Shown here in pieces: positions 5,503 through 12,789 of a stretch of DNA of 36,246 nucleotides. Location of the stretch: IMG/VR virus record IMGVR_UViG_3300028388_004050, positions 1 through 36,246 of that record; one strand, given 5' to 3'. The notes under the pieces were generated by a model. That model was not told the DNA's origin. It saw only the letters and a list, made by a program, of their open reading frames with translations, and made no database searches. Position numbers and translations under genes: made by a program. This DNA comes from a virus. Every line of letters begins with the position of its first letter. Positions within the stretch are counted from its first letter, which is position 1.

Positions 5503-5515
5503 CAGTTATTTTTGG

Positions 5516-5591
5516 TAGCCCGTAAGAGAATCGAACTCTTTTCTTCCGGGTGAAAACCGGAGATCCTAATACCAATGTAGACGAACGGGCC
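5516..5591 (-). tRNA. tRNA-Glu (anticodon UUC)
   Basis: The acceptor GGCCCGT pairs with ACGGGCT (first pair G-U), with discriminator A and an encoded CCA at 5513-5515. The anticodon stem TCCGG/CCGGA holds TTTTCAC, anticodon UUC. The T-arm is AAGAG-TTCGATT-CTCTT. Confidence 0.9.
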
Positions 5592-5592
5592 A

Positions 5593-5906
5593 TATTACGT
5601 TTTTTGAAGACGCCCCACGGATTCGAACCTACATTTTCATCCATCACCTTACTCGACGTTCGTAGCGCCGGGCGTTACGTGGGCATAAAATTCTGTGGGG
5701 CTCTCCTTAACGTCTCAAGCCGCAGCCGACCCTTTAGAGGTCTACCCCATAAGACGGACATTCCAGATGGCTCAGTGTGCACCTACCGCACCATCTTACT
5801 GTCATATTCGCGGGCACGAGGGGATTTGCACCAGGTCCCTAAACCCTCTCCTCTTGTCGCTTGACTAGGGAATCAACGACGTTAAGCGTCTTGCTCAGCC
5901 GCGTAC
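5593..5906 (-). ncRNA. Unresolved structured RNA region with tRNA-like parts
   Basis: A 310-nt gap in the tRNA array with no plausible gene. On the minus strand it shows: a T-loop-like TTCGAAT (5626-5632); a perfect 7-bp acceptor-like pair GCCCCAC/GTGGGGC between about 5702-5696 and 5613-5619; a second T-loop-like TGCAAAT (near 5823-5829) inside a GAGGG/CCCTC stem; and the hairpin AGATGG/CCATCT. A long-range pair GACGCTT/GGGCGTC could close the whole region, as in tmRNA, but I find neither the tmRNA 5' consensus nor an Ala-Ala-ending tag frame. It could be two decayed tRNAs or one larger RNA. Confidence 0.35.
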
Positions 5907-5909
5907 TGG

Positions 5910-5982
5910 CGGATGTGAAGGGATTCGAACCCTCGCATGGCGGATCGACAGTCCGCTGTGTTAACCACTTCACCACACATCC
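5910..5982 (-). tRNA. tRNA-Asp (anticodon GUC), second copy
   Basis: The acceptor GGATGTG pairs fully with CACATCC, with discriminator G and an encoded CCA at 5907-5909. The anticodon stem GCGGA/TCCGC holds CTGTCGA, anticodon GUC. The T-arm is GAGGG-TTCGAAT-CCCTT. Confidence 0.9.
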
Positions 5983-6017
5983 AAATAGCGTTGTATCTCT
6001 ATACATGTTAGTTTTGG

Positions 6018-6090
6018 CTGGGGAGGTGCGATTCGAACGCACAATAGTAGCTGATTCAAAGTCAGACTGGTCACCGTTTCCCTCTCCCCA
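6018..6090 (-). tRNA. tRNA-Gln (anticodon UUG)
   Basis: The acceptor TGGGGAG pairs fully with CTCCCCA (U1:A72, typical for Gln), with discriminator G and an encoded CCA at 6015-6017. The anticodon loop CTTTGAA gives UUG. The T-arm is GTGCG-TTCGAAT-CGCAC. Confidence 0.88.
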
Positions 6091-6109
6091 AAATTCTAAG
6101 CAAATATGG

Positions 6110-6181
6110 TAGTCCCGGAGTGAATCGAACACTCAACCCTCGCTAATCAGGCGAGTACGTTACCGGTTACGCCACAGGACT
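6110..6181 (-). tRNA. tRNA-Ile (anticodon GAU)
   Basis: The acceptor AGTCCTG pairs with CGGGACT (one G-U pair), with discriminator A and an encoded CCA at 6107-6109. The anticodon stem CTCGC/GCGAG holds CTGATTA, anticodon GAU. The T-arm is GAGTG-TTCGATT-CACTC. Confidence 0.9.
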
Positions 6182-6191
6182 ATTAATCTGG

Positions 6192-6227
6192 TCGGGAGGT
6201 GTGGACTCGAACCACTCCGATTTCCCG
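6192..6227 (-). pseudogene. tRNA 3' half / acceptor-T minihelix
   Basis: A T-arm (GTGG-TTCGAGT-CCAC), a 3' acceptor strand CCTCCCG, discriminator A and an encoded CCA (6189-6191), but no D- or anticodon arm upstream. A local CGGGA (6227-6223) can pair with TCCCG and make a minihelix. It is most likely the 3' remnant of a tRNA. Confidence 0.55.
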
Positions 6228-6353
6228 TTTATCATACTAGCAGATCTTTCCGCTTCATCGTTTTTTATGCGATTGGCTGCTTGATCGTATCTTAGATACC
6301 TGATCCATTTAACTCACTGGGCACTCGCATTGTCAAGAGGCGAGCTGTTATTT
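6228..6353 (-). other. Spacer without gene; one short hairpin
   Basis: No cloverleaf or reading frame. It contains the hairpin GTATC-TTA-GATAC (6287-6299). A TTGACA near 6330 has only a poor -10 partner (TTAAAT, 18 nt). The 5' partner of the half tRNA at 6192-6227 was not found here. Confidence 0.3.
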
Positions 6354-6356
6354 TGG

Positions 6357-6444
6357 TGCCAAGGGGATGGATTCGAACCTCCGTGTTAACCGTTTCCGGA
6401 CCTGATTTACAGTCAGGCTGCTTCGACCGCTTGCATACCTTGGC
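6357..6444 (-). tRNA. tRNA-Tyr (anticodon GUA)
   Basis: A class II tRNA. The acceptor GCCAAGG pairs fully with CCTTGGC, with discriminator A and an encoded CCA at 6354-6356. The anticodon stem CTGA/TCAG encloses CTGTAAA, anticodon GUA, with a normal long variable arm and T-arm loop TTCGAAT. Confidence 0.92.
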
Positions 6445-6452
6445 ATATTTGG

Positions 6453-6526
6453 CTCCCTCCGTGCGACTCGAACGCACAACTCACGGATTAACAGTCCGCC
6501 GCCCCTACCAGTAGGGCCCCGAGGGA
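6453..6526 (-). tRNA. tRNA-Asn (anticodon GUU)
   Basis: The anticodon stem GCGGA/TCCGT holds CTGTTAA, anticodon GUU; discriminator G and an encoded CCA (6450-6452). The acceptor TCCCTCG against GGAGGGA pairs at six positions with a G:G at 7:66. The T-arm is GTGCG-TTCGAGT-CGCAC. Confidence 0.87.
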
Positions 6527-6538
6527 ATAATTTTTTGG

Positions 6539-6613
6539 CAGGGGTGGAGAGAATCGAACTCCCGTCGCAAGGTTTTGGAGACCCGCATCTTATCCATTTA
6601 TGAACACACCCCC
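6539..6613 (-). tRNA. tRNA-Trp (anticodon CCA)
   Basis: The acceptor GGGGGTG pairs with CACCCCT (first pair G-U), with discriminator G and an encoded CCA at 6536-6538. The anticodon loop CTCCAAA gives CCA. The T-arm is CGGGAG-TTCGATT-CTC. The anticodon stem has one mismatch at its base. Confidence 0.85.
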
Positions 6614-6773: not shown

Positions 6774-6901
6774 CTCTACTTTCAACTGCACTATGGAAGG
6801 ACTCGAACCTTCGGTCGGCCGTCGCCTATTCATCGGAATGCCCCCGAACACATGGAGTCGAACCATGCTTACCGCCTGTCATAGTGCATGTGAAAGTAGA
6901 G
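6774..6901 (-). ncRNA. Structured RNA unit 1, tRNA-like, closed by 18-nt arms
   Basis: Arms at 6774-6791 and 6884-6901 are near-perfect inverted copies (11 outer and 5 inner pairs around a 2-nt mismatch). Inside, the stem continues so that GCACTATG pairs with CATAGTGC, an 8-bp acceptor-like helix. The interior has two tRNA-like 7-nt loops: CATGG-TTCGACT-CCATG and GAAGG-TTCGAGT-CCTTC. The second is a good T-arm next to the acceptor; the first sits in the anticodon-arm position and would read CGA (Ser). There is almost no D-arm and no CCA. Its arms are repeated in unit 2. Confidence 0.5.
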
Positions 6902-7076
6902 CTCTACTTTCAACTGCACACCAATATACTTGGCCAAGTATAACCACGGCGGGTGTGAAGATCAGAATTGTTATCGCTGTCGTCTCCCCCGAGCCTCTTC
7001 ACTCCTAGCTTTTACGTTCGCTAAACGAAACTTGGGGGCAGCGCAACGCCGCTATGGTGTGCATGTGAAAGTAGAG
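6902..7076 (-). ncRNA. Structured RNA unit 2, closed by the same 18-nt arms
   Basis: Arms at 6902-6919 and 7059-7076 are identical to those of unit 1 and directly abut it. Inside: GCACACC/GGTGTGC next to the arms; GCGGCG with a CGCCG partner; GCTG...CCCCC pairing with GGGGG...CAGC; and an 18-bp perfect palindrome at 6925-6942 (TATACTTGG and its complement). There is no tRNA T-loop and no protein frame. It lies about 85 nt downstream of the promoter at 7168-7196, so it should be abundant early in infection. Confidence 0.5.
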
Positions 7077-7167
7077 TCGTTTCCACTTCCCGTTAATCAT
7101 CGGGGTTGCCCTAGAACTTTGGTGTTTCGATTTTCAAAGAGCGGTAGACCCAATCGCCTACATTATT

Positions 7168-7196
7168 AATATAACTATTACTCAACCTAAAGTCAA
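7168..7196 (-). promoter_or_regulatory. Early promoter for the structured RNAs and tRNA array
   Basis: On the minus strand TGTTGACTTT, 17 nt from the -35 to TATATT. It is the only clear promoter upstream of the two structured RNA units and the tRNAs down to 5516. Confidence 0.8.
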
Positions 7197-7210: not shown

Positions 7211-7278
7211 TTGTGCCAGAAAGAATTGAACTTTCCACAAAGGCTTATGAGACCTCTAGTCACACCAGTGATAGCACA
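7211..7278 (-). tRNA. tRNA-Met-type (anticodon CAU), short D-arm
   Basis: The acceptor TGTGCTA pairs with TGGCACA, with discriminator A and an encoded CCA at 7208-7210. The anticodon loop CTCATAA gives CAU, and the T-arm is GAAAG-TTCAATT-CTTTC. The D-arm is small, for a total of 68 nt. Could be Met or lysidine-Ile. Confidence 0.7.
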
Positions 7279-7359
7279 TCAATCAATATAACCTAAACCC
7301 ATTAACACAACCAACACAACCATTGCTAATACAGCACCTACAGCGATCATCTCGGCCAT
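7279..7359 (-). CDS. 26-aa single-pass membrane peptide
   Basis: MAEMIAVGAVLAMVVLVVLM then GLGYID: nearly the whole peptide is one hydrophobic helix. SD GGAGAG sits 5 nt before the ATG, which supports translation. The TGA is immediately before the 5' end of a tRNA-Met. A terminator lies just upstream, so expression may depend on read-through from 7554-7582. Function unknown; comparable tiny phage membrane peptides can modulate host envelope enzymes. Confidence 0.5.
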   Translation of the reverse strand: MAEMIAVGAVLAMVVLVVLMGLGYID

Positions 7360-7673: not shown

Positions 7674-8012
7674 TTAGTATTGTTCAGCGAGACCATTCAG
7701 TACCAACTCTTCATTGAGATTGGTCATCGTCTCACCATAAAAAATTGTAGCTAGGTAACGACCATATTTTCCGGTTTGATCTTTTTCTGTCATAACATAG
7801 ATTTCTGTTCCCGGAGGAATTTGATCTTCTACAAATGATTTAGATACAAGACCATATGGTCGTTCTTCCCCACGAATTTCAGGCGTGTCAATATTAGCTA
7901 ATCGCAGCTGCTCGTTCATCAACCAGGTGTTAAATCCTAGATCAATATCAGCTCGGATTGTGTCACCATCATATATGCTTCTAACAATTGCCCTATAAAA
8001 ATATCGTTGCAT
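7674..8012 (-). CDS. Staphylococcal-nuclease-like (thermonuclease) protein
   Basis: A 112-aa SNase-family OB-fold domain with little else. Family motifs visible: YDGDTIRADID (metal-binding Asp), LRLANIDTPEIRG (Arg and Asp of the active site, then Glu), DQTGKYGRYLA (second catalytic Arg) and the C-terminal NEELVLNGLAE helix. The predicted activity is Ca-dependent hydrolysis of DNA and RNA. There is no signal peptide, so it would act in the cytoplasm, perhaps on host nucleic acid. SD AAGGA precedes the ATG. It follows the secreted-type gene at 8021 by 8 nt. Confidence 0.85.
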   Translation of the reverse strand: MQRYFYRAIVRSIYDGDTIRADIDLGFNTWLMNEQLRLANIDTPEIRGEERPYGLVSKSFVEDQIPPGTEIYVMTEKDQTGKYGRYLATIFYGETMTNLNEELVLNGLAEQY

Positions 8013-9413: not shown

Positions 9414-9743
9414 CTACATCAAGTCTTTCTTGATTTGGTGTACAGCGTCAGCGACGATTGGAGGATAGTCACCCATATACGTTCCAGCCCACAGCTGATC
9501 TTCGTCTATTAGGTGCTTGTGGTGGTGTTCGATCTCGTCCCAATTTTTTCTCAGCTTGCGGACCAAATGGTCATACATCTCATCGGTCAAGATCGGATCA
9601 TCTTCGATGTAGTATGCATACGCGGCCATCAAAAACCACGGAACAGACAAATTGATATTATCGTCAATACTGTTGATACAATGCTGATCAAGCAGAATGT
9701 CGTGGGGAGTTGATCCATCCATGAAAACATCAAGCGAGGGCAT
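9414..9743 (-). CDS. Small protein resembling the Ia subdomain of NAD-dependent DNA ligase
   Basis: A 109-aa protein. The stretch PWFLMAAYAYYIEDDPILTD then EMYDHLVRKL matches the pattern YY..D.P.[IL][ST]D..YD.L of the NMN-binding Ia subdomain of bacterial LigA, but there is no adenylation domain. The rest (HHHKHLIDEDQLWAGTYMGDYP) recalls small proteins seen in other tailed phages. It may be a stand-alone helical module or simply convergent. The start overlaps the SprT-like gene by 14 nt. Confidence 0.55.
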   Translation of the reverse strand: MPSLDVFMDGSTPHDILLDQHCINSIDDNINLSVPWFLMAAYAYYIEDDPILTDEMYDHLVRKLRKNWDEIEHHHKHLIDEDQLWAGTYMGDYPPIVADAVHQIKKDLM

Positions 9744-10804: not shown

Positions 10805-11463
10805 TTCTGTACCTCTTTAAGAATATGTTGCTTACCTTTCGCACCAGTCCAATGCATAACAACTGGATTGTCTGGTGCGGTGTTGTCTTGCAGGTCGAGA
10901 CGCAATGTGTTATATTTTCGTGGCAGATCGGTTATGTGTAATAGCCGCCGTATACCAGGGCGAAGTAACTGATGGAGAACTTCTTGATCACCATCACGCG
11001 GAAATTGTTCAACTGCAGCTACCCACTCATCCAAAATAATTGGGCGGTCCTTAAATGCGACAACACCACTGTTGTGCCACTTTTCTCCTCGACGTTTTGA
11101 CCACGGGACATCTTCTACCATAGCAAGTTTGTTTGGTTCAACATTATCAAAAATTGGTAGTAAATTACCTCTAACTTCACAATCAGTGTCGATCCAACAA
11201 ACATAATTCGCTATCTTAGACGCTTCCTGCATAGCAGCGGGCTTTTTAAACCACCCCTTTGCTTTATGTTTTGTCATGTCTAAAATACCATCGCTTATTA
11301 TCGCGAACTCATCATGTGCAATCTCCGACATACCAAAATCACAAACTAAGATCTCCGCTCTACCGCCAGGATTGTGTTTTCGAAATTTTCTTAAAAACCA
11401 ATCCAGCATCCAATCAGTCTTTTTATCACATCCGGTGATAAAAAGTTTATCATATGATTTCAT
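10801..11463 (-). CDS. Glycosyltransferase-like protein with DTD motif
   Basis: About 220 aa from the chosen start (MKSYDKLFITGCDKKTDWML); two upstream ATGs exist. The core ANYVCWIDTDCEVRGNL has the D-x-D pattern used by GT-A glycosyltransferases to hold metal and nucleotide sugar, followed by WHNSGVVAFKDRP and GDQEVLHQLL, which match the GT8-like layout. It overlaps the previous gene by 14 nt and the next by 4 nt. Confidence 0.6.
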   Translation of the reverse strand: MKSYDKLFITGCDKKTDWMLDWFLRKFRKHNPGGRAEILVCDFGMSEIAHDEFAIISDGILDMTKHKAKGWFKKPAAMQEASKIANYVCWIDTDCEVRGNLLPIFDNVEPNKLAMVEDVPWSKRRGEKWHNSGVVAFKDRPIILDEWVAAVEQFPRDGDQEVLHQLLRPGIRRLLHITDLPRKYNTLRLDLQDNTAPDNPVVMHWTGAKGKQHILKEVQK

Positions 11464-12097
11464 ATCCTTCACCATAATTATGTTTAGCCTGTACACCATA
11501 CTGATTTTGAATCGTTGTGAACGAATCGTGAGCTTCTACAGGCCACGGATAATATTCTTCCAAGAACGGAAACATATCAACATTCAAAAACACATCTGTT
11601 GGGCGTGCATGCAATCGAGCTTCTGTGATAATAATTCGGGCGGCTTCTGGTTTAATTCTATATCCGTGAGCGCCAGGGAAATATCTCTTCGATGTTAACG
11701 GATTGACACCAAGTCTCAGAGGATCATTGTACTTACCATATGACGGCCGCCCAAGGTTAATACATCCTTTGTACGAAATTTTATCAGGAATCTTATTAAC
11801 CAATACCGCATCATGCTCAAAAATTGTGTACTGCTGATTGTCTTCAACAGCTTTTTTCCATAGCGTAAAATGCGACAAAAATGCTGCTTGACAATTCTCT
11901 GGCCGCGACCACCTCTCCACCAATCCACTAGGATCAATCTTTTCTTGTTTTAGCTTCTGTTCGATGTCTGTGTTTAGAGGTGTGATCGCCGGAAAAATTT
12001 CCACCTCCATACCAAAAGACGCCGCAGATTTTATACACCGCTTAGCAGCCTCTACAGATCGATTATTATCGAGAATTGTAATTACATAATTTTTCAT
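11450..12097 (-). CDS. GT25-type glycosyltransferase
   Basis: About 215 aa starting at MKNYVITILDNNRSVEAAKR. It has the GT25 pattern: an N-terminal YVITI strand, the mid CQAAFLSHFTLWKKAVEDN segment, TIFEHDAVLV (acidic metal site), then PGAHGYRIKPEAARIII. GT25 enzymes add galactose or glucose to lipooligosaccharide. The ATG overlaps the upstream TGA (ATGA). It is paralogous to the next upstream gene. Confidence 0.72.
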   Translation of the reverse strand: MKNYVITILDNNRSVEAAKRCIKSAASFGMEVEIFPAITPLNTDIEQKLKQEKIDPSGLVERWSRPENCQAAFLSHFTLWKKAVEDNQQYTIFEHDAVLVNKIPDKISYKGCINLGRPSYGKYNDPLRLGVNPLTSKRYFPGAHGYRIKPEAARIIITEARLHARPTDVFLNVDMFPFLEEYYPWPVEAHDSFTTIQNQYGVQAKHNYGEGYEII

Positions 12098-12789
12098 TGT
12101 GTGGTTGTTGAGGGTAGACCCTGTACCTTTGTATAAAACTTCGTTGAAACACCTAAACGAGCAATTAGCTGACGGCACATTAATGCATCATTAGGCCACA
12201 ATCCATATTGATTGACTGCATCAAGTAGGTTTCTGGCTCCACGTGGTGTAACTATATATGCAGAGTTACCAGCAAGCCCTTGCGGAACAGTATCCACATC
12301 AATCTTAGGAACAGCAACAATTGGTTGATTTGCTTGAGATATCACCTGTTGGTAAAACTTAGATGCTAATCGAGTTGCTCCACGAGGATCATTTAATCCG
12401 ACGATATCAAACCGGCCAGTGTCAAAGTCTTCTGGCAATTTATTGATAAACATAGCATCATGCTCTAGAACAACGATCGGTTGATTGTCCCTGTAAGCAA
12501 GATCCCACAAAAAGTAATGGCTTAGCGCACATGCAATACGTTTATTTGGATCAGCAGTTGGATAGGCCGTTTTTGTCAACCCACTGTGAAAATCAATCTG
12601 CTCACCCAACCATGGATAATTCCACTTAATGTTATTCTCGCTTAATAGCCGATCAACATCATGTGGCTGTACAGCAAAAAACTTTTTTATATCAAACTGA
12701 TTACCAACTTTTTTGCTGCTGTCACATAGTGTACGAAATCCTTGCTCAGATACCGGTGATCCATATACGACGATAGCATATACGTTCAC
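12094..12789 (-). CDS. GT25-type glycosyltransferase (second paralogue)
   Basis: A 231-aa protein with the same plan as the gene downstream: RIACALSHYFLWDLAYRDNQ, IVVLEHDAMFINKLP and GLAGNSAYIVTPRGARNLLD. Two adjacent GT25-type genes suggest two linkages of one oligosaccharide or a recent duplication. The ATG overlaps the upstream stop by 4 nt. Confidence 0.72.
   Translation of the reverse strand: MNVYAIVVYGSPVSEQGFRTLCDSSKKVGNQFDIKKFFAVQPHDVDRLLSENNIKWNYPWLGEQIDFHSGLTKTAYPTADPNKRIACALSHYFLWDLAYRDNQPIVVLEHDAMFINKLPEDFDTGRFDIVGLNDPRGATRLASKFYQQVISQANQPIVAVPKIDVDTVPQGLAGNSAYIVTPRGARNLLDAVNQYGLWPNDALMCRQLIARLGVSTKFYTKVQGLPSTTTQ

Follow-up and report, generated by a model that had tools for sequence, protein, structure and literature searches.

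Two abutting structured RNAs occupy positions 6774-7076 of the viral DNA analysed here (the window: IMG/VR record IMGVR_UViG_3300028388_004050, positions 1 to 36,246, all 36,246 nucleotides (nt) of it). With a probability of roughly 60%, they are two members of a phage family, termed here "stalked RNAs", that opens transcription units for transfer RNA (tRNA) laid out like ribosomal RNA (rRNA) operons. As read from its sequence and from those of its relatives, each unit is a constant, covarying stalk around a variable structured payload, set behind a boxA and a leader element of the Rhodobacterales type; from the same comparisons, T4-like phages most likely open their tRNA operons with the host rRNA leader. 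The features concerned, in the order in which they would be transcribed, are the following.

7168 to 7196, minus strand: sigma-70-like promoter, TTGACT-17-TATATT, with 10 of 12 matches; 0.8 such sites are expected by chance in the region, and the promoter is weak evidence alone.
7130 to 7142, minus strand: boxA GCTCTTTGAAAAT, as in Rhodobacterales rRNA leaders, and the sole exact match in the window.
7092 to 7117, minus strand: leader element GUUC-UA-GGGCAACCC-CGAUGAU-UAAC, a variant of the UAG-hairpin-GAUGAU element.
7084 to 7090, minus strand: leader segment GGAAGUG, which can pair with UACUUUC of the 5' arm, a tentative co-transcriptional intermediate.
6902 to 7076, minus strand: stalked RNA unit 2, 175 nt, with a GC-rich payload, no T arm, and no payload homologue found.
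7059 to 7076, minus strand: 5' arm of the unit 2 stalk, CUCUACUUUCA-CA-UGCAC.
6925 to 6942, minus strand: 18-nt palindrome of sequence UAUACUUGGCCAAGUAUA within unit 2.
6902 to 6919, minus strand: 3' arm of the unit 2 stalk, GUGCA-GU-UGAAAGUAGAG.
6774 to 6901, minus strand: stalked RNA unit 1, 128 nt, with two T arms.
6884 to 6901, minus strand: 5' arm of the unit 1 stalk.
6851 to 6867, minus strand: T arm 1 of unit 1, CAUGG-UUCGACU-CCAUG.
6817 to 6826, minus strand: hairpin GGC-GACG-GCC of unit 1, conserved across the unit 1 family.
6796 to 6812, minus strand: T arm 2 of unit 1, GAAGG-UUCGAGU-CCUUC, adjoining the inner stalk helix.
6774 to 6791, minus strand: 3' arm of the unit 1 stalk.
5513 to 6613, minus strand: downstream tRNA array, in which ARAGORN calls Asn, Tyr, Ile, Gln, Asp and Glu and to which Rfam adds 6539-6613.

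Because all the tRNAs of the window, the promoter (7196-7168) and the boxA (7142-7130) are on the minus strand, the RNA reads from 7076 to 6774: unit 2, then unit 1, then the array, beyond which tRNA genes run on to position 105. The initial annotation, made from the letters of the window, had placed two abutting units with identical 18-nt arms between a promoter and a tRNA array. That order is confirmed, and the arms are indeed the same (6774-6791 equals 6902-6919, and 6884-6901 equals 7059-7076); the palindrome at the junction and that at 6925-6942 are also where it had put them. The functional strand, the internal mismatch of the stalk and, above all, the boxA and leader element had been missed. 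The arms do not make a plain 18-base-pair helix, since that mismatch interrupts it: in both units the stalk is 11 base pairs (bp), a 2x2 mismatch CA/GU (C-U plus A-G), and then 9 bp. Folding of the minus strand gave z-scores of -4.6 (unit 1), -5.3 (unit 2) and -6.6 (the two together), with no shuffled sequence as stable. The description "partly tRNA-like" is supported: in unit 1 the two TTCGANT loops belong to exact T arms at 6796-6812 and 6851-6867. Unit 2 has none. ARAGORN calls no tRNA at either unit, and unit 1 scores 16.2 bits with the Rfam tRNA model, below the threshold of 29 and short of a full cloverleaf. As had been supposed, no Rfam family matches the units.

Relatives were found initially through an RNR-based retrieval, which led to contigs L042 and L043. 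Both carry the same arms with compensatory changes (CUCUGUUUUC/GAAAACAGAG replacing CUCUACUUUC/GAAAGUAGAG) around different payloads in the same place; the comparison of arms for such changes had been set beforehand as a possible refutation, and the relatives do contain them. Three pattern scans of IMG/VR, each built from the two stalk cores with an unspecified stretch between them, enlarged the collection. In the first scan, for which pairing was not required, 32 of the 33 matches showed stalk complementarity extending past the pattern (the exception is L114). A reversed pattern matched in none of 48 records and the real pattern in 45, a few of these being chance matches with no stalk. The collected set comprises 65 distinct units at 60 loci on about 56 contigs, the window included; four pairs of loci share a contig, and about 63 units in roughly 55 contigs lie outside the window. 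Ten letters per arm were fixed by the search strings, and the later loci scan was also filtered on pairing; arm columns 1-6 and 17-21 lay outside the strings. What appear to be boxA-led units with a variant stalk, bearing other letters beside the mismatch, occur in L138 (minus strand, from 2774; CA mismatch then GAUAUAC, with partner GUAUAUC) and L148 (from 12330), which suggests that the search strings captured only part of the family. An exact stalk search of 84,980 prokaryote genomes returned five matches, of which the three inspected are due to chance and the other two lie in Streptococcus. The stalk was not found in cultured phages, and BLAST of whole units against these returned only tRNA matches.

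The plan of the stalk is constant across units: 11 bp, the C-A/G-Y mismatch, and 7-10 bp. Among 38 distinct stalks, 97.4% of cells are paired, and 14 of 19 pairs show changes on both sides; the covariation score of 0.513 compares with 0.162 for shuffled alignments and at most 0.134 for slid ones. Nearly all of the standard pair types occur at the innermost pairs, and at the mismatch the A-G is invariant and the adjoining C stands opposite U or C in almost all units. A long covarying helix encloses the RNA, as leader and trailer enclose pre-rRNA. The wobble pairs, 58 G-U versus 6 A-C, indicate selection on RNA of the minus strand, which is the sense of the units.

The second line of evidence is the leader. 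A recurrent order is seen across loci: promoter, boxA, leader element, one or more stalked RNAs, and tRNAs. Of 63 units, 37 have a boxA-like site in the 250 nt before them (3.6% in the control), and 18 of the 24 distinct exact boxA sites have a stalked unit within 300 nt. A scan for the boxA leader with GAAACAGA yielded six loci, all on contigs that were already known to carry units. At the other end, a tRNA starts 1-7 nt from the stalk in 23 of 65 units. After boxA, many leaders continue with UA-[hairpin]-GAURAY, which an outer helix encloses, and the two helices of this element covary (0.693, versus 0.240 shuffled and at most 0.153 slid). When 3.4 Mb was searched, 18 phage leaders proved to contain the element, as did three host rRNA leaders (Ruegeria, Marivivens and Sulfitobacter), and two further matches were due to chance; the window's own copy, with an outer helix shorter than that of its relatives, failed the strict filter of this search. 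A slightly looser search found it in the rRNA leaders of 6 of 7 Rhodobacterales genera and 0 of 8 other proteobacteria. In the Rhodobacterales rRNA leaders L198, L199, L204, L206, L210 and L217, the UAG-hairpin-GAUGAU element lies about 80 nt past boxA; a limited literature search found no description of it. That boxA and the element are common to these operons and to the host rRNA operon points to an rRNA-operon mimic, on which the "processing modules" offered as one option by the initial annotation touch only in part.

Two further observations concern the leader. A possible folding INTERMEDIATE is seen in 26 of 58 leaders, in which a copy of the 3' arm (for example GGAAACAGA) precedes the 5' arm and could pair first. 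In units with unusual arms the unit's own leader fits better, with 5 of 1000 swapped leaders equally good, and a simpler run-length comparison of leader-arm pairing gave a weak signal; a role as folding intermediate is suggestive only. Separately, a second leader motif, approximately GAAUGGGCGUCCU-GGNGAUGGAAGCG-AAGCUGAAAAAUCC, stands next to the stalk upstream of units in L113, L117, L093, L128, L090, L092 and L130, either instead of or after the GAUGAU element.

Because the boxA and the leader element match those of Rhodobacterales rRNA leaders, the hosts are most likely Rhodobacterales. The carriers appear to be T4-like: two long records contain a full T4 gp23 capsid gene, and among the closest relatives of the window by protein are T4-like phages infecting Methylophilales, Sinorhizobium and Rhizobium. 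Four cultured protein relatives (C48C1, Melnitz, phiM12 and RHph_I1_18) have no boxA motif, and the tRNA arrays of the cultured roseophages DSS3P8 and RcXuper have neither boxA nor element, the one match being inside a tRNA gene.

The payloads vary as much as the frame is constant. Units range from 74 to 175 nt, and their payloads fall into 43 clusters at 0.8 similarity; payloads are replaceable between operons, and leader and stalk are retained. One to three canonical T arms occur in 27 of 65 payloads, where dinucleotide shuffling leads one to expect 0.1% and the reverse strand has none; some other payloads are simple bulged hairpins. Unit 1 has relatives at L098:11346-11473 and on the minus strand of L161 (707-832), and a more distant one at L092:586-709. 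This family of four sequences keeps two T arms and the GGC-GACG-GCC hairpin, and has 17 double-changed pairs, 8 in the stalk and the rest inside, both T arms included. A three-T-arm family (L104, L130 and L158) covaries too. The unit at L097:2752-2861 has its T arm, acceptor and D arm arranged as in a tRNA cut open at the anticodon loop, with the stalk replacing the anticodon arm; its match to the YrlA model (RF02553) scores 32 bits, where the threshold is 69. For the payload of unit 2, the collected set holds no relative.

Several observations weigh against the view that the window pair belongs to a family of stalked RNAs opening rRNA-like tRNA operons. The conservation of the stalk cores is partly by construction, because the search fixed ten letters of each arm. 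No recognisable boxA lies within 250 nt of 26 of the 63 units, some of which are second units of tandems. The stalk sequence is absent from the six alphaproteobacterial rRNA operons inspected, and the host pre-rRNA stalk was rejected on that ground as the source of the phage stalk. The stalk is also conserved in sequence beyond what RNase III by itself is known to require, which hints that something else reads it specifically. Finally, a T arm is missing from 25 of the 43 payload clusters.

The rrn operons of E. coli use boxA to recruit the Nus complex, and their leader pairs with the trailer while the latter is being transcribed, giving a helix that contains an RNase III site (PMC10250234). 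By analogy, the same logic may be carried over to the phage tRNA operons. Nascent boxA would load host NusB/NusE and their partners, giving a Rho-resistant polymerase for a long untranslated tRNA operon, and the tethered leader would bring the 5' arm to the 3' arm to form a leader-trailer helix like that of pre-16S rRNA. The stalk of about 22 positions would then be cut by a double-strand-specific nuclease of the host, RNase III being the likeliest candidate, so that the payload RNA comes free and the tRNA that follows keeps a short leader, to be removed by RNase P. Once freed, the payloads would persist as stable RNAs, many as tRNA mimics unable to accept an amino acid, and at the weakest step of the scheme they would probably occupy host tRNA-binding enzymes or nucleases. 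In its full form, the proposal is that T4-like phages of Rhodobacterales copy the host rRNA leader and run their tRNA operons as pseudo-rRNA operons, in which the stalk is a docking or excision frame for an interchangeable library of small RNAs. These RNAs, of more than 40 kinds so far and with three T loops at most, would block host enzymes that handle tRNA or defences that cut it; this is offered as tentative.

For the payload itself, two readings appear about equally likely. On the first, which is possible, payloads act as decoys: by mimicking tRNA they would bind nucleases of the host or of defence systems, among them anticodon nucleases and RNase P. The stalk would then be a clamp for stability, and payload diversity would record an arms race. 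The excess of canonical T arms on one strand argues for it, as do the tRNA-like arm order and YrlA match at L097:2752-2861 and the conservation and covariation of payload families. Several payloads, however, are plain hairpins, no defence target is known, and a decoy function alone leaves both the rRNA leader and the place directly before tRNAs unexplained. The decoys for RNases or toxins suggested by the initial annotation stay conjectural; most payload clusters have no T arm.

On the second reading, likewise possible, the assembly is purely a module for transcription and processing: leader, boxA and stalk would ensure read-through and a clean 5' end for the first tRNA, and the payload would be passive, often consisting of old tRNA pieces. 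A constant leader and stalk around a replaceable payload are what it predicts, and the short distance from stalk end to first tRNA is consistent with it. Payload families that are conserved between operons and contigs, and that covary, are not, and the tandem units (in the window, L104, L105, L153 and L158) would be redundant.

A scaffold like that of Y RNAs, with the stalk binding host Ro60/Rsr and the payload tethering a partner such as PNPase, is unlikely. The topology of L097:2752-2861 is that of YrlA, and the plan is likewise a constant, mismatch-bearing stem with a variable effector, but the stalk motif is unlike the Ro60-binding stem of the YrlA model and the score is far below gathering. 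TROVE genes were found in 0 of 49 records, a count that a host-encoded partner would escape, and RtcB in 0 of 28. Membership in YrlA is rejected, and an analogy is all that is left: the window units do not match RF02553, the best relative reaches 32 of 69 bits, and TROVE is absent.

More improbable still is an element acting at the DNA level, in which the arms would be recombination sites or the terminal repeats that bound a mobile cassette, with RNA structure as a side effect. Payloads are exchanged between operons in a cassette-like way, and the arms of the two window copies are identical; the excess of G-U over A-C, a one-strand signature of RNA, nevertheless largely refutes it, and the inner helix covaries per unit, with orientation and place behind boxA fixed. 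Integron attC sites, mobile terminal repeats and recombination sites were each rejected by this bias (58 versus 6). That the units are decayed tRNA genes between chance inverted repeats is scarcely credible: many payloads hold tRNA-like pieces and a degenerate tRNA is nearby, but covariation refutes it, and recurrence in about 55 other contigs and the fold z-scores also stand against it.

Among neighbouring features, a degenerate tRNA-Met-like gene lies just before the promoter (7211-7280, minus strand; 17.8 bits with Rfam for a stretch cut at 7250), and in L042 and L043 a called tRNA-Met(CAT) stands at its place. The tRNA region also holds, on the minus strand, a staphylococcal-nuclease-like gene between tRNA genes (7674-8012) and an open reading frame (ORF) of 169 amino acids (1100-1609) whose match to a family of baseplate hub and tail lysozyme proteins is confined to the C-terminal part of these (984-1147 of 1179). 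Further along the same strand are a 109-amino-acid ORF with only the N-terminal NAD-binding part of NAD-dependent DNA ligase (9414-9743) and two adjacent ORFs (11450-12789) that match glycosyltransferase family 25 of the lipopolysaccharide type.

If stalked RNAs are what they appear to be, phage biology gains a class of RNA with a constant frame and interchangeable contents, and the leader suggests a virus copying the host's rRNA antitermination leader for its own tRNA operons. For uncultured phages, hosts could be predicted from RNA motifs alone. A conserved element is pointed out in the rRNA leaders of Rhodobacterales, and the question of what stable RNAs other than tRNAs do in the tRNA clusters of phages, T4 species 1 and 2 among them, gains a testable lead. 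No description of the units was found in the literature searched, coverage of which was partial.

Of the known systems, the Rhodobacterales rRNA leader has the same or nearly the same boxA, the covarying UAG-hairpin-GAUGAU element, and a long helix closing a structured RNA downstream. The phage version differs in that it encloses a small variable RNA and drives tRNAs, its boxA and element are about 16-21 nt apart versus about 80 in the host, and its stalk sequence differs from the host pre-rRNA helix. T4 species 1 and 2 (rnaC and rnaD) can be called positional analogues, being likewise small RNAs that sit among the tRNAs of a T4-like phage, and species 1 ends in a T arm; they lack the CA/GU-mismatch stalk and the boxA leader and are placed at the end of their cluster, not its start. 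When sequence and structure were compared, BLAST of the window units gave no match to T4, and a T arm was the only resemblance seen. YrlA resembles L097:2752-2861 in having a constant stem and a tRNA-like domain in which a stem replaces the anticodon arm, but its stem motif is unmatched, most payloads are unrelated to it, and the score is below threshold. GOLLD and ROOL, also structured, have been reported from phages and in some cases lie close to tRNA genes; they are far larger, and the window has no Rfam match to them. Circularly permuted tRNA genes share the arm order of L097:2752-2861, which, unlike them, ends in a stalk and gives no sign of maturation to tRNA. Stalked RNAs are best regarded as an undescribed class, with which rrn leaders, T4 species 1 and 2, and YrlA each share one trait while differing in another.
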